DNA from: Candidatus Omnitrophota bacterium
GTDB lineage: Bacteria; Omnitrophota; Gorgyraeia; Aquiviventales; Aquiviventaceae
Assembly: GCA_023247275.1 (NCBI GenBank)
Contig: JAHFGT010000018.1
Span: 1-38,003, forward strand
Direction of reading: 5' to 3'
DNA: 38,003 nucleotides
Shown here: positions 7,209 to 35,810 of the stretch, in pieces
Position numbering within the stretch: the stretch's first letter is position 1
How the letters are laid out: each line of letters opens with the position of its first letter
Notes under the pieces: generated by a model
Told to the model about the DNA's origin: nothing
Seen by the model: the letters and a program-made list of their open reading frames with translations, nothing else
Databases searched by the model: none
Position numbers and translations under genes: made by a program

Positions 7209-10200
7209 TTATGGCGTAGCGACGGCCTGGAGCTGTTCGATCAGGCTGGCGAGTTTGGCGCGCGCGCTTAGCACGACTTGGGGATCCTGGGTATACAGCT
7301 TCAGCGATTCGACGATGGTCGGGTCGATCGCCAAGGCTTGGTCAGCGTCGGTGACAAGGCGCTGGACATTTGGATCCGCCATCGCGGTCGCATTAGCCCT
7401 GACGCGTGCCACTTGCTGACTCAGCAAGCTCAAGTAGTCATAGTCCTCCATCCCGTCTCGCAACACCTCTAACCGGATCGACGGCACCGGGCCATCCGGC
7501 CCAGGATACAACAGCGACCCATTGCCATTCTGATTCCACAGCGTGTTGTTTGGATTCTGGTACGGGTTGGTCTTCCAATAATCGGTACACCAGTAGAGCA
7601 GCCCGTTGATTTTGTACTTCCAGCACATCCACGGAAGAATCCGCGGGGCCATCCCTGGATAGTCGATCACCAGCGTCGGGTAGGGTGGCTCAGGGCTGGA
7701 CACATAGAGCCACACTGATTTGCCGAGCTGGCGCAGTTTGTCGGCCTGGGGGTGGTTGAAAATGACGTTGCGGATCGCGACAATATCGAAGGGGACAAAC
7801 CACGACCCTAGGGTATCGACGTCGAAGGAATTGCCCAGGGTAACCAGGTTCTTCAGTCCAGGGTCTGCCCCGTGCAGCATCTGCGCAGCCTCATTGGCGT
7901 TGGCCAAGCCTGGGCTGGGCTCATCGTACATATAAATGTAGTGGCGTTCGAACCATCCGGGATGGCTGCGCAGGATGGCTGCCAGTTGGGTATAGGTCGG
8001 CTGCAGCGCTTGAAGCTCCTGCGATGTGGTGGGCCAGTTGTTGCCAAGGCTCCCACTGTGTCCGCCGATCCCAAACGCTGACAAGCCGCGGTCCAGCATG
8101 CCTTGCATCCCTGGCGCAGCCAGCGGGAGCGAGGCCGGGGTGGTCGCCAACTCGAGATAGTTCACCCGCTCGGGCGCGTCCAGATCGACATTAAGGATCG
8201 GGGCCAGCCGATGGTCGATGAGGCTGTTGTAATACCGCTGGAGCAGCTCAGGCTGATTCGACTGCCAGTTCGCCCACCACTGCGGGAAAAAGTTCCCGTA
8301 GCCGGTTTGGATCCGGTTGACATACAGATCGAAGGCACTGGGCAGCGATGGGACGGTCGGCAAGGTGAAGTTCCAGACGATGACGCGCAACGGGATCTGC
8401 TGCTCTGGTGCGTTGGTGGGACGAATGGCGATGGTTCCTGCGTACTCGCCTGGCGGCGTTGTGGCGTCAGCGCGGACCGTAATCCAGACCGACTGCAGCC
8501 AGCCCTGCGGCACATCGAAGGGCGAGGCGGCAGGCAGGTAATCAGGCCACCAGCCCACATAGGAGACAGCATACGCAGGCTGCTGTGTCTTCACCGAACC
8601 CACCGCAGACCAGGTGATGGTTTGGGCCGGGATCACCCCAGGGCCAGTGGTCTGCTGAAGGTCTGTGATCGTCACCCCGACTTGCTGTAGAGGAGCCACC
8701 CACCCGGTCCGTAAGATCAATTGAATCGCTTCACTCTCATTGCGCGCCAAACTCAGCGTCGCCGAGCCACGAGCAGCCCCGGTGGGCAGGCTCAGTTGCG
8801 GCAGGACCTTGGTGGCCGATGGCACGACGAACACGTCGTAAGGGCTGGCGATCGTCTCGAAGATCTGATCGCTGGACTGCGAGACATTCCCGGCAGCGTC
8901 GAGCGAACGCACGCGGAAGTGATGCGTGGCTCCGGCGACAAGTCCTGTGAGTGTCATCTGATGGTTGGTGATCAGGGCCTGATCTTGTGTGGTCTGGCCA
9001 TAGCCCGATGTGGATCCATAGTCCATTTCTGAGGTGGCGGGTTCATTCGTGGTCCAGCCGATCGTCGCGCTGACATCGGTGATGTTAGTCACACCGATCG
9101 CCGTGATGTTGGGCGGTGTGACATCGGTGTTCTGCGGAGCGAAGCTCACCTGCTGCACGCGGATATTGGCATCGTACAGGCCTGCGCTGTACGCATCGTT
9201 GGTCCAGGTGAATCGCACCGTGTGCACGCCGGATGGCATCGTCAGTTGCAACGTGCCGGTCTGATACATCGTCGTCGAGCCGGGAACTTGGAGGGTTCCC
9301 TTGAAGACACCATCAACAGCTACCGCCAGGCTAAATGCATACCCGATTGGCAGCTTTGGAGCGGCAGAGCTATTTTTGTTGGTCGCCGTGACGCCAAGGG
9401 TCCATGTGCCCCCTGGGCCGCCGTCCACCCGATACTCCAACCAGACACCACTATTCCAATAGTAGACGTCGGTCCCTGCCACGACCCAACTGCTGCTGCG
9501 CGCCGAGGTGTTGGCCGCAGGGACGATGCCAGCCTTCGGTGGCGTCGTGATGATAAAGTCCGCGCTCGCGACGGCGCTGTCCGCCATCCCGGCTTTCACG
9601 GCTTTGGCCTTCACGGTCGCGCTCGACGTCAAGGTGACTGGAGCGGCATACAGCAGCGAGCTAAGGGCGGGTGTGGTGCCATCCAGCGTGTAACGGATCT
9701 CCGCGCCTGTTGTGCCCGTGGCCAGCGTTACCTGCACCGAGTCGACGAATATGCCGCCGGCAGGGGTCAGGGTTGGTGTGGCGACCGACTGAGTGGGCGG
9801 AGCGGGTGGGGTGAAGGTGAGGTCTTTCATGCGAAGGTTGGCATCGTAGACATTGACCTGGTACACATCGTTGGTCCATGTCAGGCGCACGGTGTGCACT
9901 CCTCCGGGTGCAGAGACTGCCAGCGTCCCGGTCTGGTACGTTGTGGTAGAGCCGGAAACTTGCAGCGTCCCTTTTGAGCTACCGTCGACCGCGACGGTGA
10001 GCTTGAAGGCATACCCGGCAGGGAGTCCTGGAGCCGTGGTGCTATTCTGGTTCGTGGCGGTCATCGCCAGAATCCAGTTGCCGCCCGCCCCAAAGTCCAC
10101 CCGGTATTCCACCCACTGATTGCCGTTCCAGGTGTACAGTTCGGTTCCGGCGGTTTTCCAACTGGTGCTGCGCGCCGAGGTGTTGGCTGCGGGAATGGTG

Positions 10201-10295
10201 GTGGCGGCTTGCAGTGGCGAGGCGGCTTCGCAGGTAATCAGCAAAAAGCTACCGAAGGCAATCAGCCGACCAATGAGCCGATGCCAAGGCATCAT
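7209..10295 (-). CDS. Secreted multidomain DUF4091 (glycoside-hydrolase-like) protein
   Basis: 1028 residues. The N-terminus has a signal peptide (hydrophobic run 10-22, AxA-like site near 28-31). Domains in order: a beta-sandwich, carbohydrate-binding-like module at about 34-160; a chitobiase/hexosaminidase C-terminal-like (CHB_HEX_C_1) module at about 173-250 with IRYTLDGTTP; a second copy of the first module at about 258-388; a fibronectin type III domain at about 395-485; and a C-terminal DUF4091 region at about 490-1020. DUF4091 hallmarks are YMYDEPSPG and SIRLEVLRDGMEDYDYLSLL. Members are predicted (alpha/beta)8 glycosidases, with the Glu of DEP as a candidate acid. It is probably exported or surface-bound and acts on an unknown polysaccharide. 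It is monocistronic and converges on the desaturase operon. A possible promoter lies upstream but is weak. Confidence 0.85.
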   Translation of the reverse strand: MMPWHRLIGRLIAFGSFLLITCEAASPLQAATTIPAANTSARSTSWKTAGTELYTWNGNQWVEYRVDFGAGGNWILAMTATNQNSTTAPGLPAGYAFKLTVAVDGSSKGTLQVSGSTTTYQTGTLAVSAPGGVHTVRLTWTNDVYQVNVYDANLRMKDLTFTPPAPPTQSVATPTLTPAGGIFVDSVQVTLATGTTGAEIRYTLDGTTPALSSLLYAAPVTLTSSATVKAKAVKAGMADSAVASADFIITTPPKAGIVPAANTSARSSSWVVAGTDVYYWNSGVWLEYRVDGGPGGTWTLGVTATNKNSSAAPKLPIGYAFSLAVAVDGVFKGTLQVPGSTTMYQTGTLQLTMPSGVHTVRFTWTNDAYSAGLYDANIRVQQVSFAPQNTDVTPPNITAIGVTNITDVSATIGWTTNEPATSEMDYGSTSGYGQTTQDQALITNHQMTLTGLVAGATHHFRVRSLDAAGNVSQSSDQIFETIASPYDVFVVPSATKVLPQLSLPTGAARGSATLSLARNESEAIQLILRTGWVAPLQQVGVTITDLQQTTGPGVIPAQTITWSAVGSVKTQQPAYAVSYVGWWPDYLPAASPFDVPQGWLQSVWITVRADATTPPGEYAGTIAIRPTNAPEQQIPLRVIVWNFTLPTVPSLPSAFDLYVNRIQTGYGNFFPQWWANWQSNQPELLQRYYNSLIDHRLAPILNVDLDAPERVNYLELATTPASLPLAAPGMQGMLDRGLSAFGIGGHSGSLGNNWPTTSQELQALQPTYTQLAAILRSHPGWFERHYIYMYDEPSPGLANANEAAQMLHGADPGLKNLVTLGNSFDVDTLGSWFVPFDIVAIRNVIFNHPQADKLRQLGKSVWLYVSSPEPPYPTLVIDYPGMAPRILPWMCWKYKINGLLYWCTDYWKTNPYQNPNNTLWNQNGNGSLLYPGPDGPVPSIRLEVLRDGMEDYDYLSLLSQQVARVRANATAMADPNVQRLVTDADQALAIDPTIVESLKLYTQDPQVVLSARAKLASLIEQLQAVATP
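9134..10196 (-). repeat. Two diverged copies of an approximately 130-codon module inside the DUF4091 gene
   Basis: Copy A covers about 9812-10196 and copy B about 9134-9524. Both start with the same phrase (PAANTSARS, then SW and a V/KTAGT-like step) and end with VHTVR-TWTND and YDAN-R. At DNA level they share long identical stretches such as gctgcgcgccgaggtgttgg. They are separated by the CHB_HEX-like module, so the duplication was of a domain rather than a tandem slip. Confidence 0.8.
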
Positions 10296-22646: not shown

Positions 22647-22676
22647 TTGTCCGTCGTCTCCGAAATATGGTATGGT
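22647..22676 (+). promoter_or_regulatory. Promoter of the riboswitch-controlled gene
   Basis: TTGTCC (22647-22652), 18 bp, TATGGT (22671-22676). Transcription would start near 22683 and run about 140 nt before the ATG, covering the riboswitch. Confidence 0.55.
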
Positions 22677-22715
22677 CTACATGGTAGGAAAGTAATCACC
22701 AGCGTTGTTGTACCG

Positions 22716-22819
22716 CTATCGGTATGAGGGCAAACCACCCGCAAGGGTGGGGCGCAAAACTATAGGGTCCCACGGCTCGCCACGCGTGGCGAGATCGCGG
22801 GATAGCCAGCTGCCGGAGA
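22716..22819 (+). promoter_or_regulatory. Cyclic-di-GMP class I (GEMM-I) riboswitch
   Basis: The conserved GEMM-I core is read in order: GAGGGCAAACC, a stem ACCC/GGGT closed by a GCAA tetraloop, GGGGCGCAAAACTATAGGGTC, a variable stem (CTCGCCACG/CGTGGCGAG, 22775-22792) and the 3' core GGGATAGCCAGCTGCCG. The P1 helix can form from CGGTA (22720-22724) and TGCCG (22811-22815). GGAG, the likely ribosome binding site, begins in the last base of P1. A translational OFF switch fits this arrangement, but ON cannot be excluded. Confidence 0.85.
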
Positions 22820-22821
22820 AG

Positions 22822-23934
22822 ATGGCGCACACAGACGTTGTGGTGACCAAGAGGCCGCGAGTTGGTGCGAAGGCACCGGCGCGCGGCTCAATTGTTGTGT
22901 GGGCCCTGGCCGTCGCGATGGCCAGTTCTGGCATTGGTCCGGTCGTGTTCGCTGGCGACGGCGCCTCTGAAGCGCTGGAACTGCGTTTGTACGCTGAGCG
23001 AGCGATTGAGCACGAGCGGGCGGCCGGGCGAGCGCCCATGGCGGACGTGATGACCGACCTGCTCCCTGGGTTGCTCGTGGAATATTTGTCGAGCCGAGAT
23101 GAAAGCATCGCGATGGATGTTGTCGATTCAGCGTTTGTCGCGCAGCAAGTCCAGGTCGCCCAACTGATGGAGCAACCCGGTTTGGCCTGGGCGTTGGATG
23201 TGTTTGCCGGCCCTGGCACCGGCTACGAAAACAATCTGCGCACATCCATCTCGAACCTGGCCGAGTTCCATCACGAGCCGACCGATCGGCAAGAGGCCCG
23301 CATGGAGCGGGCCAGTGACGCAGCGGTGGATGCGTACGAGCGACAACTGGATCGACACGTGGATCGCCTGGACAAGGCGCAAGAGACGCTGGAGAAGGTC
23401 CAAGATCGGCAGATGGAGGCCGAGAACGACCGGATTGAGCGCACCGTCGACCAGAAGAAGGCGTTCGAAAAAGCGTTCGACCGCGCAGAACCTACCGCGC
23501 AGCGGGGCAGTCAGGATATCGAAAAATCCACAACCCGACTTGTGCAAGCCGAAGATAAGGCGGCCCGCGTCGCAGAGAAGGCGCAGCAGAGCGTCGACAA
23601 GGTCGCCGCCAAGGCTGAAGAAAAGGCCGAAGAGAAAACTGAGAAAGCCGTGGAGAAAGTCGAGCAGAAAGCCGAAGAGAAGGTTGAGAAAGTTGTAGAG
23701 AAAGTCGAGCAGGTCGCCGAAAAGGTAGAGCAGAAAGCCGTGGAGAAAGTCGAACAGGCTGCAGAGAAAGCCGAGCAGAAAGCGGAAGACCAGGCGGACA
23801 AGGCGGCTGACAAGTCCCAAGAGAAATCAGAGCAAGCTGCCGATACAGGAGCTGACAAGTCAGCCGAGAAATCGTCAGACAAGAGCGATTCCGGAAAGTC
23901 CGACAAGGCTGACAAGGGTAAGAGCAAAAAATAA
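22822..23934 (+). CDS. Exported coiled-coil protein under c-di-GMP riboswitch control
   Basis: 370 residues from the ATG at 22822. A signal peptide or anchor lies at 23-45 (VVWALAVAMASSGIGPVVFAG). A small, unrecognised globular region at 50-140 follows. From about 150 to the end is a very long charged coiled coil dominated by Lys, Glu and Ala, with repeats such as EKVEQKAEEKVEKVVEKVEQ, and a Ser/Lys/Asp tail. The coding strand is highly purine-rich between 23560 and 23930. The longer upstream frame is the riboswitch, so it was rejected. Control by c-di-GMP suggests a role in biofilm, adhesion or envelope structure. It converges with the outer-membrane barrel gene 62 bp away. Confidence 0.8.
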   Translation: MAHTDVVVTKRPRVGAKAPARGSIVVWALAVAMASSGIGPVVFAGDGASEALELRLYAERAIEHERAAGRAPMADVMTDLLPGLLVEYLSSRDESIAMDVVDSAFVAQQVQVAQLMEQPGLAWALDVFAGPGTGYENNLRTSISNLAEFHHEPTDRQEARMERASDAAVDAYERQLDRHVDRLDKAQETLEKVQDRQMEAENDRIERTVDQKKAFEKAFDRAEPTAQRGSQDIEKSTTRLVQAEDKAARVAEKAQQSVDKVAAKAEEKAEEKTEKAVEKVEQKAEEKVEKVVEKVEQVAEKVEQKAVEKVEQAAEKAEQKAEDQADKAADKSQEKSEQAADTGADKSAEKSSDKSDSGKSDKADKGKSKK

Positions 23935-23996: not shown

Positions 23997-25103
23997 TCAG
24001 AAGGTGATCGAGCACCGCATCTGATTGACCCAGTCGGTGAAATCCAGACGAGGATCGTTCGAATCCTGAAATCGGTATGTCAGCGAGTAGGTCACTTGGG
24101 CCGCTGGCGTGATCAGGTAGCTGAGCGATCCGGCCAGCGTTTCCAGGTTGTCCCGCTCGGCGATGGCGATGGCGGGCACGCTGCGCGCTTGATAGTTGCG
24201 CCGCTCATGGCCAACGACGAGCGTACTGACCCACGAGCGTCCAACGACGCGACTAGCGACCCCGCGCACCTGCAGATCGTCCCAGTCGTAGAAATCTTCA
24301 AACGCGTCGTTCGACGTGTTGCGGTACGCTTGGCCGACCAGCTTCAACGAGGTGCGAGGCAGCCGCAGAGACAACGTCTGTGTCACGGTGTGCCGTTGGT
24401 CGACGCGCGTGCTCTCATCCAAATCGTTGCCGCCGCCATCGCGCGCTTTGCGCGTATCGTACTCCCGCGATTGGTAGGCCAGCCCGGTCTTCCAACTCAG
24501 TCGACGGGTCAGGGCCAGTTGGGTGTCCAGGATCAGCCGATGATCCAGAAAGCTGCTACTGGTGTCGAACGGAAAATTCAGAATCGCGAATTCATAGCGG
24601 ATCCCCCCTTGCGCGCGGGGGGACGGTTGCCATTTCGCCGCGGCCGTGAGCGTATTCGACCACGAGTTGGCGTCGCGCAGTTCACCGTAATGGGTGTTCG
24701 ACAGCTCGTAGCTGAGATCACCGGTGAGCTGTGGCGTGAACTCAGGGGTGACGGACAGTGCCACCGATTCCTCGGTGAAGAAATCGCCGCGCTTATCGCC
24801 ATCGAGAAACACGTTGCTCTCATAGCCTTGCGCGATGTCGGCCGAGCCGCTGATCAGCGGTCGACGCGGGGCCGGGGTCGGAGCCGGCACCTGGGGATGG
24901 GTTTCCAACGCGCGTTCCGCGCGCCGGCGCAGCAAGGCCAAGAACAGTTCAATGCGCTGCTCAACCCCTGGATCTGAAGCCATCGTGCGTTCACGTTCGG
25001 CCGATTCAGCGCGACCGGCGGCGAGAATCGACACGAAGACCAGCATGAGGGTGCACCGGCCTACGCCTCGTAGGTTACTTCGAGGGCAGTCGTTGAGACA
25101 CAT
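23997..25103 (-). CDS. Outer-membrane beta-barrel protein of unknown function
   Basis: Up to 368 residues. A hydrophobic stretch (LMLVFVSILAAGRAESA) gives a signal peptide if translation starts at the ATG at 25046; the longer start at 25103 overlaps the upstream gene by 29 nt. After a short helix (IELFLALLRRRAERAL) and a Pro-rich linker, residues 83-368 show alternating aromatic/polar strands (YESNVFLDGDKR, LSYELSNTHYGEL, GIRYEFAIL, WKTGLAYQSREYD), and the protein ends in Phe, as outer-membrane barrels do. It resembles SLAM/DUF560-like or generic 'outer membrane beta-barrel' proteins. It is transcribed with the small coiled-coil gene before it. Confidence 0.7.
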   Translation of the reverse strand: MCLNDCPRSNLRGVGRCTLMLVFVSILAAGRAESAERERTMASDPGVEQRIELFLALLRRRAERALETHPQVPAPTPAPRRPLISGSADIAQGYESNVFLDGDKRGDFFTEESVALSVTPEFTPQLTGDLSYELSNTHYGELRDANSWSNTLTAAAKWQPSPRAQGGIRYEFAILNFPFDTSSSFLDHRLILDTQLALTRRLSWKTGLAYQSREYDTRKARDGGGNDLDESTRVDQRHTVTQTLSLRLPRTSLKLVGQAYRNTSNDAFEDFYDWDDLQVRGVASRVVGRSWVSTLVVGHERRNYQARSVPAIAIAERDNLETLAGSLSYLITPAAQVTYSLTYRFQDSNDPRLDFTDWVNQMRCSITF

Positions 25104-25482
25104 CGCGTTCGAGGAGCGCGTCGTCCGTCTGCTGTTTGGTGTCCAGTTGCTGCTCGAGCGCGGCGGGAGCTTCAGGGGTCTGGGATGGCACAGCGACAGC
25201 AGGAGGGGGCGGGGCGCCGATCAGCTGACGGATCTCTTGCAACAAACGAGCCTGGGATGTTTCCAGTTCGCGGATCTGGCGATCCAACGCGCGACGCTGG
25301 GACCACTGCGTGGCCACCGCGCGTTGCTGTGTGGCCGTGGCCAGTTGCTGGTCAACCTGGTCCAGCTCGTCGAGTCGCTGGGCCAGCGGTGCAGTCGACG
25401 GGGCTGCCGTCTGTTCCGCGGCGACCGGCCCTGTCAGGCACCACAACGCGAGCACAATCCAACGGAGACGTCGCACGTTCAC
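25075..25482 (-). CDS. Periplasmic coiled-coil protein, partner of the barrel gene
   Basis: 135 residues from a GTG at 25482. A signal peptide (WIVLALWCLTGPVAAEQ) is cut after about residue 22. Residues 30-85 form a coiled coil (LAQRLDELDQVDQQLATATQQ, RRALDRQIRELETSQARLLQEIRQLIG), then a Pro/Ala linker and a second short helix with DTKQQTDDALLERD. The 3' end overlaps the start of the barrel gene, so the two are coupled. It may act as a periplasmic linker for the barrel. Function unknown. Confidence 0.65.
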   Translation of the reverse strand: MNVRRLRWIVLALWCLTGPVAAEQTAAPSTAPLAQRLDELDQVDQQLATATQQRAVATQWSQRRALDRQIRELETSQARLLQEIRQLIGAPPPPAVAVPSQTPEAPAALEQQLDTKQQTDDALLERDVSQRLPSK

Positions 25483-25641: not shown

Positions 25642-27732
25642 ATGCGGATCGGTCTTCGAGCCAAGCTGCTGGGGGTCACGGTCATCTTGCTTGGGGCGGT
25701 GACCCTGGGTGCGCTGCGCGAGGTCTATTTCTACATCGGGCAGCAGGTGCGCGAGCAGTCGGCGCGTCGACTCCATGTCGGCGGCCATGTCCTCACCTCG
25801 ATTCTCGATCGCACCAAAGAGCAACTGCGCGGACGCGGCACCCTCTTGGTCGAGTTGCCCAGCCTACGGGCCGGGCTGACCGTGAACCACAACGAGCTTG
25901 AACCGCTCCTGCAACAGATTAAGGCGATCCGCGCGGCGAATCTGTTGTGGGCGACCGACGCCCAGGGACGGGTGTTGGCGAGTACCGGAGAGTATCCGGC
26001 GCTCGACTCGGCCTTGACGAACGATCCGCTGGTGACCAAAGCGTTGCATGGGCGCAATGCGCTGGGATTTGATGAGTTCCTCGGCGAGTGGTGGCTGGTG
26101 TTGTGTCTGCCGGTGCACGCGGCTGATTCGGCTCAACAGATCGGGACCGTGACGCTGGCGCTGCTGATCGGAGAGGCCTATCTGGATCGGTTGACCCAAT
26201 TGACCGGAACGGATGTGGGGTTTTTGTGGCGCGAGCGGCCGTTTTGGTCAAAAAATTGGCCAGACACCTCACGTCAGAACATCGCGCTCCAGTCCGTTGC
26301 GGTCGACCCTGGAGTTGAACAGGAACTGGCCGTCGGAGATTCGGGTCGCTATGTGTGGGTGATGCGTCCGCTGCGGATTGGCCTGGATCCGGATGATGAG
26401 CTCGTCCGGGTGGTGCTCGGCACGACGCTGGATGAGTCGGTCATCCGCCAGACGGCGAAGGCGATCGGGCGGATCGGCGTGTTGGTGATGCTCATTGGCG
26501 GGGTGGTGTTGGCCGCGGCGATCCGGTCAATTACGCGTCCATTGAAGAGCCTGGTGGTTGACGCGCGGCGCGTGGGCAGCGGCGACTTGACGCATCGAGC
26601 CCGCATCCGCGGCGCGGATGAAGTGACCGAACTGGCCGTGGCGTTCAATCAGATGGTCGGGAATCTCTCCCAGTCGCAGGAGGCGTTACTCCGCGAGAAA
26701 CAGTTCATTGATCGGGTCATCCGGCGCATGATGAACAGCGTGGTGGTCGCGGATTTTGACGGACGCATTACGCTCATCAATCCGTCGACGCTCGAGCTGC
26801 TCGGCTACCGCGAGTCCGAGTTACTGGGCTGTCCGCTGACCGAGCTGTTTCACCAGACGCAGTCCCCGTTTGCCAGCGTGTCCTGGGACGCCTTCCTCCG
26901 CCAAGGGGTGTTGCGCAACGCCGAGGCCGCGTACCGGTCCAAATCTGGGAAGACGATCCCGGTCTTGTTCTCCGGTGTGGTCCTGCGTGACAGTGAGGCG
27001 GCGCAAGCCATTGTCTGTGTGGCGCAGGATATTACCGACCGCAAGTATCTCGAGCAATTGAAAGACAATTTCATCACGACGGTCTCGCATGAACTACGCA
27101 CCCCGCTGGCGATCATCAACGAGGGATTATCGCTGCTGCTCGAGGGAGAATTTGGCGCGCTGAACCCGGAGCAGCAGGATTTTCTGCAGATGACCGGCCG
27201 CCAAATGACCCGGCTCCAGCGGCTCATTGGGATGTTGCTGGATTTGACCGCGATTGAGAGCGGGAAGCTGACGTTGTATCAACAGCCGCTGGATCTGGCG
27301 CAGCTCATCGACCATGCCTGGCGCGCACAACAGTCTCGGGCCGCGCAGCGCACCCTCATCCGTCAGATGGCGCCCGTGCCGCCGATCCAAGGCGACCCGC
27401 AGCGCATTGCCCAGGTGCTCGACCATTTGCTGAGTAATGCCGTCCAGTTTACTCGGGAGGATGGCACCGTGACGGTGTCGGTTGCTCAGCGGGATGGGAT
27501 GGTGGCGGTCTGCATCAGCGACGATGGGGTGGGGATGGCCACAGAAGAGTGCGGGAAACTGTTTCAGAAATTCGTCCAACTGGGCCGGGCAGAAGACGAG
27601 CGGTCTGGTGGGACCGGGTTAGGGTTGTATCTGTCCCGCAAGCTGATCGAAGCGCATCGAGGGACCATCCAGGTGGAATCGGATCTCGGCCGCGGCGCCG
27701 CGTTTACCTTCTTTCTGCCGTGCAGCTCTTGA
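25642..27732 (+). CDS. Membrane sensor histidine kinase (extracytoplasmic sensor, HAMP, PAS)
   Basis: 696 residues. Membrane helix 1 lies at about 7-29, a 245-residue periplasmic sensor (probably a Cache-like or other double-fold domain) follows, helix 2 at about 277-298, then HAMP (about 296-348), PAS (about 360-470), HisKA with HELRTPL (His483), and a HATPase_c domain with its N-box near Asn599, DDGVGM, and GGTGLGLYLS at about 656. It has no fused receiver, and no response regulator lies in the window, so it is an orphan kinase here. It autophosphorylates on His483 and passes the phosphate to an unknown regulator. A clear promoter was not found in the 159-bp divergent gap. Confidence 0.9.
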   Translation: MRIGLRAKLLGVTVILLGAVTLGALREVYFYIGQQVREQSARRLHVGGHVLTSILDRTKEQLRGRGTLLVELPSLRAGLTVNHNELEPLLQQIKAIRAANLLWATDAQGRVLASTGEYPALDSALTNDPLVTKALHGRNALGFDEFLGEWWLVLCLPVHAADSAQQIGTVTLALLIGEAYLDRLTQLTGTDVGFLWRERPFWSKNWPDTSRQNIALQSVAVDPGVEQELAVGDSGRYVWVMRPLRIGLDPDDELVRVVLGTTLDESVIRQTAKAIGRIGVLVMLIGGVVLAAAIRSITRPLKSLVVDARRVGSGDLTHRARIRGADEVTELAVAFNQMVGNLSQSQEALLREKQFIDRVIRRMMNSVVVADFDGRITLINPSTLELLGYRESELLGCPLTELFHQTQSPFASVSWDAFLRQGVLRNAEAAYRSKSGKTIPVLFSGVVLRDSEAAQAIVCVAQDITDRKYLEQLKDNFITTVSHELRTPLAIINEGLSLLLEGEFGALNPEQQDFLQMTGRQMTRLQRLIGMLLDLTAIESGKLTLYQQPLDLAQLIDHAWRAQQSRAAQRTLIRQMAPVPPIQGDPQRIAQVLDHLLSNAVQFTREDGTVTVSVAQRDGMVAVCISDDGVGMATEECGKLFQKFVQLGRAEDERSGGTGLGLYLSRKLIEAHRGTIQVESDLGRGAAFTFFLPCSS

Positions 27733-31487: not shown

Positions 31488-33449
31488 ATGGAGGCCGTGA
31501 TCGCCACAACAGGATTTGCCGGCGCCAGCGTCGCGGTGTTTGAGCGCCGCATGGCCGACGCGCTGGCCAAAAGCGTCCAGTCTCATGGCGGTGTCGCGGT
31601 CAGCGCTCCGGCGATGCGCGAAGTGCCGCTGTCGTCTAACCGCGAGGCGCTCGCGTTTGGAGAACAACTCCTAGCCGGCCGAATCGACGTCGTCATCTGC
31701 ATGACGGGCGTCGGGACCCGCATGCTGCTGGAACTATTGGGGCAGACCCATGAGCCTGAACACTTCCTCGAGGCGTTGCGGCATACCACGATCGTCGCGC
31801 GCGGACCCAAACCCTTGCGCGTCCTCGGAGAGTTCAAGATCCCGGTGACTATCAGCGTCCCTGAGCCTAACACGTGGCAGGAGATCGTGCAGGCACTCGA
31901 TCTGAGTCATCGCAGCGTGGAATTAGCCGGTAAGACGGTGGCCATTCAGGAATATGGGATGTCAAGCCCCTCCCTGGTTCAAGCCTTGCGGCAGCGTGGC
32001 GCGACGATGGTCAGCGTGCCGGTGTATCGCTGGGCGCTGCCTGAGGATCTTGGTCCGCTGACACACGCCATCGACCGGCTGATCGCAGGGACCATCCAGT
32101 TTGCGCTGTTCACCAATACGGCCCAAGTGCGTCATCTGCTGCAGGTGGCGGAATCGCGCGGGGTTGAACCTGCCTTGCGCGCCGCACTAGCCCGAGTGGT
32201 GCTCGCCTCCATTGGTCCGACGACGACCGACACGATGCTCGAGTGCGGGCTGCCGGTGGATTTCGAGCCGAGCCGGCCGAAAATGGGGCCGCTCATCGAC
32301 GAGTTGGCCACGCAGGCCTCGGCCCTCCTCGCCGCCAAGATGGACGGAGCAGGTCGTCGCTGGGCGCAGCGGAGCCAGCAGTCCTATCCGCCCGCAGCCG
32401 CGGAGCGACGGCGTCACCGTCCGTTTCTGGCCGCGTGTCATCGGGAACCGACCAAGGTGACCCCGGTGTGGTTGATGCGCCAGGCGGGTCGGTATCTCAG
32501 CGAATACCGGGCGATTCGGAATAAGGTCCCCTTTCTACAGTTGTGCAAAGATAAGGAGTTGGCCGCTGAGATCACCGTGATGGCGGTTGAGAAGCTCGGG
32601 GTGGATGCGGCGATTATTTTTTCGGATATCTTGCTGGTGGCTGAACCGTTCGGTTTGGGGCTGGAGTATACGCCAGGCGATGGGCCGGTCATTTCCGGAG
32701 CGGTGACGACCGGCGCGGACATCGACCGGCTGCCGGAATTGGAGCCGGCCGAATCGCTGGCGTTTGTGTTTGACGCGATCCGCCTGGCCCGCGCGGTGCT
32801 ACATCCGACGATCCCGTTGATTGGGTTTTCCGGCGCGCCGTTTACGCTCGCCGCGTATCTGGTGGAAGGTGGCAGTTCCAAATCGTTCTTGGCGACAAAG
32901 GCGCTGATGTACCAGGATCCAGGCGCCTGGCATGCGCTGCTCGAGAAAATCAGCCGCGGCCTGATCAAATATCTCAACGGACAGATCGCCGCTGGCGCTG
33001 ACGCGGTGCAACTGTTCGATACATGGGTCGGGTGTTTAGCGCCTGAGGATTATCGAACATTTGTGCTGCCGCATACCCGAGACGTGATCCAAGCCCTCAC
33101 ACCCACTGTTCCGGTCATCCACTTCGGCACCGGCTGCGCGTCGCTGTTGACGGATCAGCGAGCCGCTGGCGGGTCGGTGCTCAGCGTTGATTTTCGCGTG
33201 GAGTTGGACCAGGCGTGGCAGACCATCGGGGCAGAGGTCGCCATTCAAGGCAATTTGGATCCGGCGGTGTTGCTGGCGCCGCCGGCGGTTATTCGTCGCC
33301 ATGTGCAGCGAATCCTGCGCCAGGCTGGTGGCCGGCCAGGGCACATTTTCAATTTAGGCCATGGGGTGTTGCCCGCAACACCGGTGGATCATGTGGTCGC
33401 ACTGGTGGAGATGGTGCACGAGCTGAGCCAGCATCCACAGTCGTCATGA
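31488..33449 (+). CDS. hemDE: Uroporphyrinogen-III synthase / uroporphyrinogen decarboxylase fusion
   Basis: 653 residues in one frame. Residues 1-285 form a HemD-like domain (VPVYRWALP, SIGPTTTDTMLECGL). Residues 310-653 form HemE with PVWLMRQAGRYL, FSDILLVAEPFGLGL, GFSGAPFTLAAYLVEGG, HFGTG and FNLGHGVLPATP. A Gln/Pro/Arg linker of about 25 residues (286-310) joins them. The protein would close hydroxymethylbilane to uroporphyrinogen III and decarboxylate it to coproporphyrinogen III. Both active-site sets look intact. A REP hairpin ends 7 nt before the start and no ribosome binding site is seen. It overlaps hemY (ATGA). Confidence 0.92.
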   Translation: MEAVIATTGFAGASVAVFERRMADALAKSVQSHGGVAVSAPAMREVPLSSNREALAFGEQLLAGRIDVVICMTGVGTRMLLELLGQTHEPEHFLEALRHTTIVARGPKPLRVLGEFKIPVTISVPEPNTWQEIVQALDLSHRSVELAGKTVAIQEYGMSSPSLVQALRQRGATMVSVPVYRWALPEDLGPLTHAIDRLIAGTIQFALFTNTAQVRHLLQVAESRGVEPALRAALARVVLASIGPTTTDTMLECGLPVDFEPSRPKMGPLIDELATQASALLAAKMDGAGRRWAQRSQQSYPPAAAERRRHRPFLAACHREPTKVTPVWLMRQAGRYLSEYRAIRNKVPFLQLCKDKELAAEITVMAVEKLGVDAAIIFSDILLVAEPFGLGLEYTPGDGPVISGAVTTGADIDRLPELEPAESLAFVFDAIRLARAVLHPTIPLIGFSGAPFTLAAYLVEGGSSKSFLATKALMYQDPGAWHALLEKISRGLIKYLNGQIAAGADAVQLFDTWVGCLAPEDYRTFVLPHTRDVIQALTPTVPVIHFGTGCASLLTDQRAAGGSVLSVDFRVELDQAWQTIGAEVAIQGNLDPAVLLAPPAVIRRHVQRILRQAGGRPGHIFNLGHGVLPATPVDHVVALVEMVHELSQHPQSS

Positions 33450-34873
33450 GCCGTCCGCATCGTGTCGTCATTATTGGAGGGGGAATCTCCGGATTGGCGA
33501 CCGCGTATCGACTGACCGAGTTGAGTCAGGAGCGCCAGGTCCCAGTGGAGGTCCAGGTACTCGAGGCTCAGCCGCGGTTTGGGGGCGTGATTAGCACTGA
33601 GCAGCGCGATGCGTTTTTGCTCGAGGCTGGGCCGGATGCGTTTCTGACGGAGAAACCCTGGGCGACCGCGTTGTGCCAGCGTCTTGGATTGGCTGAGCAG
33701 TTGATACCGACCAATCCTGTCGCCCGGCGCAGTTGGGTGGTGCGAGGTGGCCGATTGGTCCCAGTGCCGGCCGGCTGGTACTTGATGGCGCCCCACCGGT
33801 TGGGACTACTGTGGTCCTCGCCGCTGTTGAGCCTGCGGGGCAAGTGCCGTATGGCGCTCGAACCATGGGTTCCGGCGCGACGCGATGTATCGGATGAGAG
33901 CCTGGCCAGTTTTGTCCGTCGACGATTCGGCAGCGAAGCGCTGGCGCGCATTGGCCAGCCGATGGTCAGTGGGATCTACACCGCCGACCCGGATCATCTG
34001 AGCCTGCAGGCCGCCTTGCCGCAGTTCGATCAGATGGAGCGCCAACATGGGAGTGTCTTGCGCGCGATGCGGCACCGACCATCGCAAGACGCGGCGATTC
34101 CAGCAGCCAGCGGCGCGCGGTACAGTTTGTTCATGACGCTGCGCCATGGCCTGAGCTCGCTGATCGACGCGCTAGTGGCCGCGATGCCTTCGGTTCACCT
34201 GGTGACCGATACGCCAATCGCTGCAGTGACGCGCGACGCCGTGTGGAGCGTGGACACGGTTGATGGACGGCGGCTGGAAGCGGACAGCGTGTGCGTCGCC
34301 GTTCCAGCTCCGCAGGCTGCGGCATTGGTGCGCGGGTTTGCGCCGGCGCTGGCCAACGCGCTCTCGGCGATCCGATATGAATCGGTGGCGACGATGAATG
34401 TCGCGTACGAGCGATATCAGCTGCCGCGGGCGATGGAAGGGGTCGGGTTTATCGCGCCGGCCGTCGAGCATTGCGGCGTGATCGGGTGCACCTTCTCCAG
34501 TCTGAAATTTCCAGGCCGCGCGCCGGCGTCCGGCATGTTGCTGCGGGCGTTCGTCGGTGGTGCGCTGCAGCCCAGGCTCAAGACGCTCTCCGATTCTGCG
34601 CTCACCTCGATGGTGCTGGACGAACTGGAGCGCCTCCTCCGGATTACCCGGCAGCCGCGTTGGGTCGTGATCCGCCGGTTTCCGGCCGCCATGCCGCAAT
34701 ACGATGTTGGTCATCTCACCCAGGTCGCGGCGATTGAATCGCACGTGGCGCAACAGAGCGGGTTCGCCATTGCCGGCAATGGATATCACGGGATCGGTCT
34801 TCCGGATTGTATTCATCAAGCGGACCAGGCCGCGCAGCGACTGATGGAACAGATCCCCACGCATGGACGTTGA
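33446..34873 (+). CDS. hemY: Protoporphyrinogen/coproporphyrinogen oxidase (FAD-dependent)
   Basis: 475 residues of the oxygen-dependent HemY/CgoX type. The dinucleotide-binding start is VVIIGGGISGLATAYRL, with the PPO segments LEAGPDAFLT, FVRRRFGSEALARIGQPMVSGIY and YALxD-like regions, and the final FAD contact IAGNGYHGIGLPDCI. It oxidises either protoporphyrinogen or coproporphyrinogen. The actinobacterial-like ferrochelatase downstream makes coproporphyrinogen oxidation (CgoX) plausible. It overlaps hemE by 4 nt and the ferrochelatase by 11 nt, so the three heme genes are translated together. Confidence 0.88.
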   Translation: MSRPHRVVIIGGGISGLATAYRLTELSQERQVPVEVQVLEAQPRFGGVISTEQRDAFLLEAGPDAFLTEKPWATALCQRLGLAEQLIPTNPVARRSWVVRGGRLVPVPAGWYLMAPHRLGLLWSSPLLSLRGKCRMALEPWVPARRDVSDESLASFVRRRFGSEALARIGQPMVSGIYTADPDHLSLQAALPQFDQMERQHGSVLRAMRHRPSQDAAIPAASGARYSLFMTLRHGLSSLIDALVAAMPSVHLVTDTPIAAVTRDAVWSVDTVDGRRLEADSVCVAVPAPQAAALVRGFAPALANALSAIRYESVATMNVAYERYQLPRAMEGVGFIAPAVEHCGVIGCTFSSLKFPGRAPASGMLLRAFVGGALQPRLKTLSDSALTSMVLDELERLLRITRQPRWVVIRRFPAAMPQYDVGHLTQVAAIESHVAQQSGFAIAGNGYHGIGLPDCIHQADQAAQRLMEQIPTHGR

Positions 34874-35810
34874 CCACGTGCTCTTGGTCGGGTTTGGTGG
34901 TCCGACCCACCCGGACGAGATTCAGCCATTTCTCGAGCAGGTGACCCGAGGACATCGCCTCCCAGCCGCCCGGCTCGAGGACGTGGCGCACCACTATCAT
35001 CGTGTCGGCGGCCGATCCCGGTATAACGAATACACCCTGGCCCTCGCCCAGCAGCTGGCGCAATGCCTGCAGCAGGCTGAAATCCACCGACCGGTGTTTG
35101 TCGGCCTGCGCAACTGGCATCCGTTTCTTGAGGATACGCTGCGGCACATCCACGCGCAGGGTCTCAGACGCGGCCTCGGCGTGATCTTGGCCCCACACCG
35201 ATGCGATTCCAGTTATGAACGCTACCTGCGCGACGTTGACCAGGCCCGACAACGCGCCGGGGCTCAAGCGATCACGTACCGCTATCTTGCCTCGTGGCAC
35301 GACCATCCCTTGTTCATCCGCGCGCAGGCCGATGCGGTGGCCGACACGCTGGACCGGGTGCCGGCTCGCGCACAGGCACACCTGCTGTTTACCGCCCATG
35401 CGATTCCGACCGACATGGCGGGCGCGGCAGTCTATGTCGAACAGGTCGCCGACTCGAGTCAGGCAGTGGCTCGCCGGTTGGGCTGGTCCTCGTGGAGTGT
35501 GGCCTACCAGTCACGGAGCGGGGATCCGCGCCAGCCCTGGCTGGAGCCAGAGGTATCCGCAGCGATCCAGACACTTGCGCAGCGCCAGTGCCCGCAGGTG
35601 GTGATCGTGCCGATCGGATTTTTCTGCGATAATGTCGAAGTGGTCTACGATTTGGATGTGGAGGCGCAGGCCGCGGCGGCGGCGGCTGGGGTTGGTTATT
35701 CTCGGGCGCCGACGGTGGCCGGACAAGCGGCGTTCACGCAGATGTTTGCGCAGATGATTGGGGAAACGTTGAGTGGAGTCTTGCGTCGGTGTTCTAGACG
35801 TGTATCATAA
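34863..35810 (+). CDS. hemH: Ferrochelatase (possibly coproporphyrin ferrochelatase)
   Basis: 315 residues with the ferrochelatase metal-site residues His179 (FTAHAIP) and Glu259 (DNVEVVYDLD) plus PIGFFCD. The N-terminus LLVGFGGPTHPDEIQPFLEQV with VAxHYxxxGGxS resembles actinobacterial CpfC enzymes more than the LLVNLGTP-type of proteobacteria. The last step may therefore be iron insertion into coproporphyrin III, later decarboxylated by a ChdC (HemQ) that is not in view. This is inference; classical protoporphyrin use is also possible. The start overlaps hemY by 11 nt. Confidence 0.85.
   Translation: MDVDHVLLVGFGGPTHPDEIQPFLEQVTRGHRLPAARLEDVAHHYHRVGGRSRYNEYTLALAQQLAQCLQQAEIHRPVFVGLRNWHPFLEDTLRHIHAQGLRRGLGVILAPHRCDSSYERYLRDVDQARQRAGAQAITYRYLASWHDHPLFIRAQADAVADTLDRVPARAQAHLLFTAHAIPTDMAGAAVYVEQVADSSQAVARRLGWSSWSVAYQSRSGDPRQPWLEPEVSAAIQTLAQRQCPQVVIVPIGFFCDNVEVVYDLDVEAQAAAAAAGVGYSRAPTVAGQAAFTQMFAQMIGETLSGVLRRCSRRVS
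35781..35808 (+). promoter_or_regulatory. Internal promoter at the end of hemH
   Basis: TTGCGT (35781-35786), 16 bp, TATCAT (35803-35808) with an upstream TG (extended -10). It lies inside the hemH tail and would start transcription a few bases before the next gene's ribosome binding site. Confidence 0.45.

Follow-up and report, generated by a model that had tools for sequence, protein, structure and literature searches.

The 38,003-nt stretch of Omnitrophota DNA analyzed here (the window; contig JAHFGT010000018.1) contains a c-di-GMP-I riboswitch ahead of a gene for a predicted exported protein. A gene for an outer-membrane barrel converges on that gene. We hold with moderate confidence that the riboswitch controls translation initiation of this one partner of an envelope module, probably as an OFF switch, and that the partner acts with the barrel. 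The riboswitch-linked exported-protein/barrel module appears to be an undescribed surface system. The riboswitch class is already known, and what appears new is the module under its control. The window contains the following features.

22647 to 22676, +: putative sigma-70-like promoter TTGTCC-18-TATGGT (direct reading)
22710 to 22725, +: 5' leader hairpin GUACCG-CUAU-CGGUAU, which competes with the P1 strand (ViennaRNA)
22714 to 22720, +: P1 5' strand CGCUAUC, which pairs with GAUGGCG (22821 to 22827) around the start codon (duplex energy and shuffles)
22719 to 22817, +: c-di-GMP-I riboswitch aptamer (RF01051; covariation in relatives)
22735 to 22750, +: P2 hairpin with GCAA loop (covariance match and alignment of relatives)
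22815 to 22827, +: Shine-Dalgarno GGAG and start codon ATG, the masked translation start (sequence; CCGGAGAAGATG conserved in G005)
22822 to 23934, +: predicted exported 370-aa protein with a leader, a domain of ~105 aa, and a K/E/A-rich helical tail (no Pfam match; orthologues in G005 and G154; composition)
23997 to 25103, -: converging outer-membrane beta-barrel, BBP2_2 superfamily (PF10082, 29.5 bits, cut-off 23.7)
25075 to 25482, -: predicted small exported helical protein, whose gene overlaps the barrel gene (ORF overlap; no Pfam match)
25642 to 27732, +: sensor histidine kinase dCache_3-HAMP-PAS-HisKA-HATPase, which adjoins the barrel operon (Pfam; sensor part conserved at the G154 locus)

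A cmscan search of the whole window returned a single match at the gathering threshold, RF01051 c-di-GMP-I at 22719 to 22817 on the forward strand. The score was 52.2 bits (cut-off 35; E = 1.5e-07), and the match covered model positions 1 to 87, the full length. The ligand-site G at model column 11 is G22729, which we take to be G20 of Vc2. The aptamer also contains the GCAAA junction within 22754 to 22759 and the terminal conserved CC at C22813-C22814. A sequence-only reading of the window had called a c-di-GMP-I riboswitch with all core GEMM-I elements, and the search bears out the class. The ligand is predicted to be c-di-GMP. Vc2 of Vibrio cholerae is the translational example of RF01051, the model that the window aptamer matches over its full length. 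The window riboswitch differs from this known system in its 5' leader hairpin competing with P1, in its target, which is an undescribed exported protein, and in having an extended P3 but no 11-nt tetraloop receptor of the usual kind (CUAAG/UAUGG). The GCAA loop for GNRA docking is there; for the receptor, a common but not universal feature, the alignment shows deletions, and a tandem C-G helix might take its place. The c-di-GMP-I-GGC model (RF03167, same clan) scored highest for the module aptamers of genomes G021, G020, and G061, whereas the window aptamer was reported under RF01051.

The riboswitch region as first delimited started at 22647, which is the start of the -35-like TTGTCC, 18 nt before TATGGT. 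The G005 orthologue is preceded by a similar TTGTTA-18-TATCTT, read by eye. The gene start was taken as the ATG at 22822, and the mechanical ORF begins at TTG 22705. GGAG at 22815 to 22818 overlaps the last aptamer bases. The P1/AUG duplex with its extension has an energy of -26 kcal/mol, and 3 of 1,000 shuffles were as good. The equivalent helix in G005 is moderate, at -21 kcal/mol (49 of 1,000 shuffles as good). Masking of the start by P1 was not evident when the duplex test was applied to the G154 leader. In the window, P1 pairing covers the start region and the aptamer ends on GGAG, in agreement with the earlier claim of a leader helix, P1, that ends at the ribosome-binding site. Because the aptamer abuts the start codon, a terminator has no room in the window and G005. 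With the aptamer helices held, the leader hairpin is favored over P1 by 1.4 to 5.8 kcal/mol, by transcript length.

From this sequence logic, it is reasonably likely that c-di-GMP turns the window gene OFF. Ligand binding would fold the aptamer and close P1, whose 3' strand contains the start codon, and ribosomes would be blocked from loading. With no ligand, the 5' leader would form its own hairpin and the start would be open. Binding of the ligand could offset the energy advantage of the hairpin, which would favor P1 and block translation. At low c-di-GMP, the exported protein and the barrel would probably work together on the cell surface. Masking of the ribosome-binding site has precedent in a translationally repressing c-di-GMP riboswitch, as described where Inuzuka 2018 is cited in PMC11218506, and the masked translation start is common to both.

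Fourteen module leaders are of the terminator type and carry an intrinsic terminator, those of G109 and G340 being placed by hand. In these leaders, the 5' arm of the terminator has its complement within the aptamer. The part matched is the P2 3' arm and core in most of them and the P3 3' arm in G392, G218, and G037. Terminator arms paired better with their own aptamers than with others (mean of -19.5 versus -16.1 kcal/mol), and 0 of 50,000 permutations were as good; this test and the binomial test below treat related loci as independent. Folding of the aptamer around its ligand would release the terminator, and these relatives are predicted to be OFF switches.

An ON switch with the same riboswitch and target is unlikely. 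Without ligand, UCGGUA (22719 to 22724) would pair with UGCCGG (22811 to 22816) and hide both the C that binds the ligand and the Shine-Dalgarno sequence. Binding of c-di-GMP would break this pairing and expose the start. The pairing is in direct competition with the ligand site. It is seen in folds of the window leader, and a homologous pairing is present in the G005 fold. Several other riboswitches of the same genome also have terminators that overlap the aptamer 3' end, which is an ON layout. However, P1 masks the AUG more strongly and can do so while the aptamer is folded, and the terminator-type relatives of the same locus indicate OFF, the sign that we prefer. The UCGGUA/UGCCGG helix was also considered as the ligand-bound P1. 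It was rejected in that role, since the C that should contact the ligand would then be base-paired.

The last 215 aa of the 370-aa protein contain 16% K, 16% E, and 17% A, and proline is absent. Export is predicted from a hydrophobic stretch starting at residue 24 and a VFA/GDG site recognized by eye. A Pfam search of the protein gave no match. Its earlier description as an exported Lys/Glu-rich protein with no named family thus stands. A single-sequence structure model was all helical, with low confidence. One homologue was present among the 59 genomes of the first search, in G005, which belongs to another genus (49% identity). No homology to the riboswitch-controlled proteins of other lineages was detected with hhalign or hmmsearch. 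The Bc2-cap riboswitch of Bacillus thuringiensis (PMC4933901) is also of the c-di-GMP-I class and also precedes a surface protein gene. Unlike in that adhesin control, the window has a protein of a different kind, a Gram-negative-type envelope with a barrel partner, and a translational platform. The sequence-only reading had suggested an envelope or biofilm protein; a simple matrix role for the exported protein would fit poorly with the predicted OFF sign.

The barrel matches PF10082 (putative beta-barrel porin 2) above its cut-off, and the outer-membrane barrel that had been read as converging on the riboswitch gene is thus recovered. Its score against the surface lipoprotein assembly modifier family PF04575 (Slam/SlipAM) was 21.8 bits, just below the cut-off of 22. 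In contrast to PF10082 and PF04575 (Slam), its N terminus is predicted to be short and helical and not a TPR domain. Its neighbor gene encodes a riboswitch-controlled exported helical protein and not a known lipoprotein client. The barrel was modeled with ~14 strands at low confidence. Foldseek returned generic barrels (OmpG, CymA, and a polysaccharide secretin) from this weak model, and no function is claimed by fold.

The gene for the small protein probably forms one operon with the barrel gene. Similarly placed small proteins are present in G020, G013, and G016, and no homology was detected between them and the window protein. Residues 1 to 361 of the kinase are 49% identical to a kinase beside the G154 barrel. 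The nirA-like gene upstream of the riboswitch is up to 80% identical to genes of Candidatus Omnitrophota MAGs, which would place the organism in that phylum. In nirA neighborhoods elsewhere, the exported-protein gene is not adjacent to nirA. The window also encodes a 1,028-aa GH123-type glycoside hydrolase with CBM6 (7212 to 10295), a fused uroporphyrinogen-III synthase and decarboxylase (31488 to 33446), and, further on, a ferrochelatase (34863 to 35807).

The arrangement is conserved beyond the window. In G005, an aptamer of 63.7 bits precedes the orthologous gene, the leader has the same CCGGAGAAGATG end, and a converging barrel is 54% identical to that of the window. The gene upstream of the riboswitch differs between the two, so the pair of riboswitch gene and barrel was kept through changed surroundings. 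G154, a member of another family, was found in a phylum sample of 384 Omnitrophota genomes. It has an aptamer of 61 bits, the orthologous protein, a converging barrel with 50% identity, and the sensor kinase. Since the 384-genome search added G154 and did not list G005, the protein type of the window is known in three genomes. In five members of the home family (G020, G013, G021, G026, and G016), a homologous barrel faces a c-di-GMP-I-type riboswitch that drives other exported low-complexity proteins.

The barrel profile matched in 69 of the 384 genomes. We rescanned 32 further barrel neighborhoods, each reaching ~4 kb to either side unless the contig ended sooner. An aptamer was present at all eight best-scoring barrels outside the home family and G154 (G109, G061, G392, G218, G037, G398, G368, and G340). 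With the home family and G154 included, an aptamer lies within ~4.4 kb of 13 of the 14 top barrels; among 23 weaker barrels, one is linked in this way (G275). The largest gap among linked best barrels is 4.4 kb, in G020. A strong barrel, G154:C31, had no aptamer within ~4 kb. With the background set generously at 6% per locus, a binomial test gives ~2e-15 for 13 in 14, a figure that is too optimistic because the loci are related. Near a weaker barrel homologue in G373, an nhaA-I RNA motif was found (L178:1556-1610; 51 bits).

At the eight loci and at G275, the riboswitch precedes a gene whose product has a signal-like leader and helical or low-complexity sequence. This gene and the barrel gene converge, except in G392, G218, and G037, where they diverge. 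In a profile search, the controlled proteins of different lineages were mostly unrelated to each other. Any function shared among them would thus rest on position. The barrel may be a bystander, held by slow rearrangement beside a real, controlling riboswitch; we regard this as improbable. The barrel and the riboswitch are in separate transcripts and the controlled proteins differ from lineage to lineage, as a bystander would allow. However, the pair persists in G005 despite its different upstream neighbor, and the linkage recurs across several families, in converging and diverging layouts, and is limited to the barrel subfamily that scores best. We propose that the barrel and its exported partner cooperate at the cell surface. 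The sequence-only reading had suggested a related function for the barrel, which gains independent support from the neighborhood kept in G005 and G154 and from the 13-of-14 linkage.

The aptamers of 14 module loci were aligned with one more aptamer of the window's genome (n = 15). Standard pairs filled 98.9% of the pair cells, and two-sided changes were found at 8 of 12 pairs. Pairing fell to 28 to 43% when the partner was shifted by one column. The P2 and P3 helices are kept by compensatory change. P3 of the window has one A-C mismatch, and one P3 pair is likewise broken in G005. Aptamers of the cGAMP type reportedly carry an A at the discriminating position. It is very improbable that the window aptamer senses another dinucleotide (e.g., 3',3'-cGAMP) or is a decayed, nonbinding GEMM relic: the missing receptor, the moderate score, and the broken P3 pairs would fit, but the discriminating position is a G in 15 of 15 related aptamers and the compensatory changes show that the helices are under selection. 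The riboswitch is a well-supported addition to RF01051 and a compact translational platform.

The genome of the window (G000), an Omnitrophota MAG, is 1.89 Mb and 86% complete. It contains 16 c-di-GMP-I matches, 11 of them above the cut-off, and 14 control genomes contain 0. It also contains 17 GGDEF matches. Seven of these lie within ~9 kb on one strand (G000:C65:400-9539), a tandem cluster of predicted diguanylate cyclases. Other riboswitch targets in this genome include a subtilase with Ig domains, an Ig/fn3 protein, a beta-helix protein, a PilT-like ATPase, and pilin-like proteins that were Pfam negative and recognized by eye only. Four of the riboswitches (L101, L105, L109, and L110, on C5, C7, C6, and C8) have terminators that overlap the aptamer 3' end and are predicted to be ON switches. 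They precede the subtilase, the Ig/fn3 protein, and pilin-like or fimbria-like proteins. Their predicted sign is opposite to that of the barrel module, and natural riboswitches of the same class seem to have opposite outputs within one genome.

A second riboswitch-controlled exported protein of this genome (L103:5409-5999, on C46) is weakly related (13.5 bits) to B1-type partners in other members of the family, and no barrel is beside it in the fetched stretch. The top-scoring aptamer of the genome (L100:1087-2697, on C4) is followed by a strong terminator and then by a transposase-like ORF, recognized by eye, so this aptamer may be cut off from its own gene. In G020, a riboswitch-controlled protein (L126:5839-7764) has many DxDGDGxxN repeats that resemble calcium-binding thrombospondin type 3 repeats. 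Aptamers of the c-di-GMP-I class lie close together or in tandem at G020:C34:1783-2127, at G002:C12:35411-35710, and at G000:C73:8545 and 10615.

Across the phylum sample, 338 of the 384 genomes contain c-di-GMP-I riboswitches. All 27 examined members of the window's family contain them, with up to 25 matches in one genome. Omnitrophota are mostly ultra-small and uncultured and are proposed to be predators or parasites (PMC10066038). That paper is the main survey of the phylum and has no mention of riboswitches or c-di-GMP. A literature search, with subscription papers and preprints outside its scope, found no paper joining Omnitrophota with riboswitch, c-di-GMP, or diguanylate. We tentatively propose a phylum-wide c-di-GMP-I regulon, in which the module of barrel and fast-evolving partner is held OFF and other surface genes are ON, the messenger toggling between two cell-surface states. 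If true, these might be, for example, a free-living state and an attached or predatory one. The prevalence of the riboswitches, together with the adjacent barrel module, would allow a sequence-based listing of the Omnitrophota surface regulon. Such a listing would give a way to test when these cells attach or attack.
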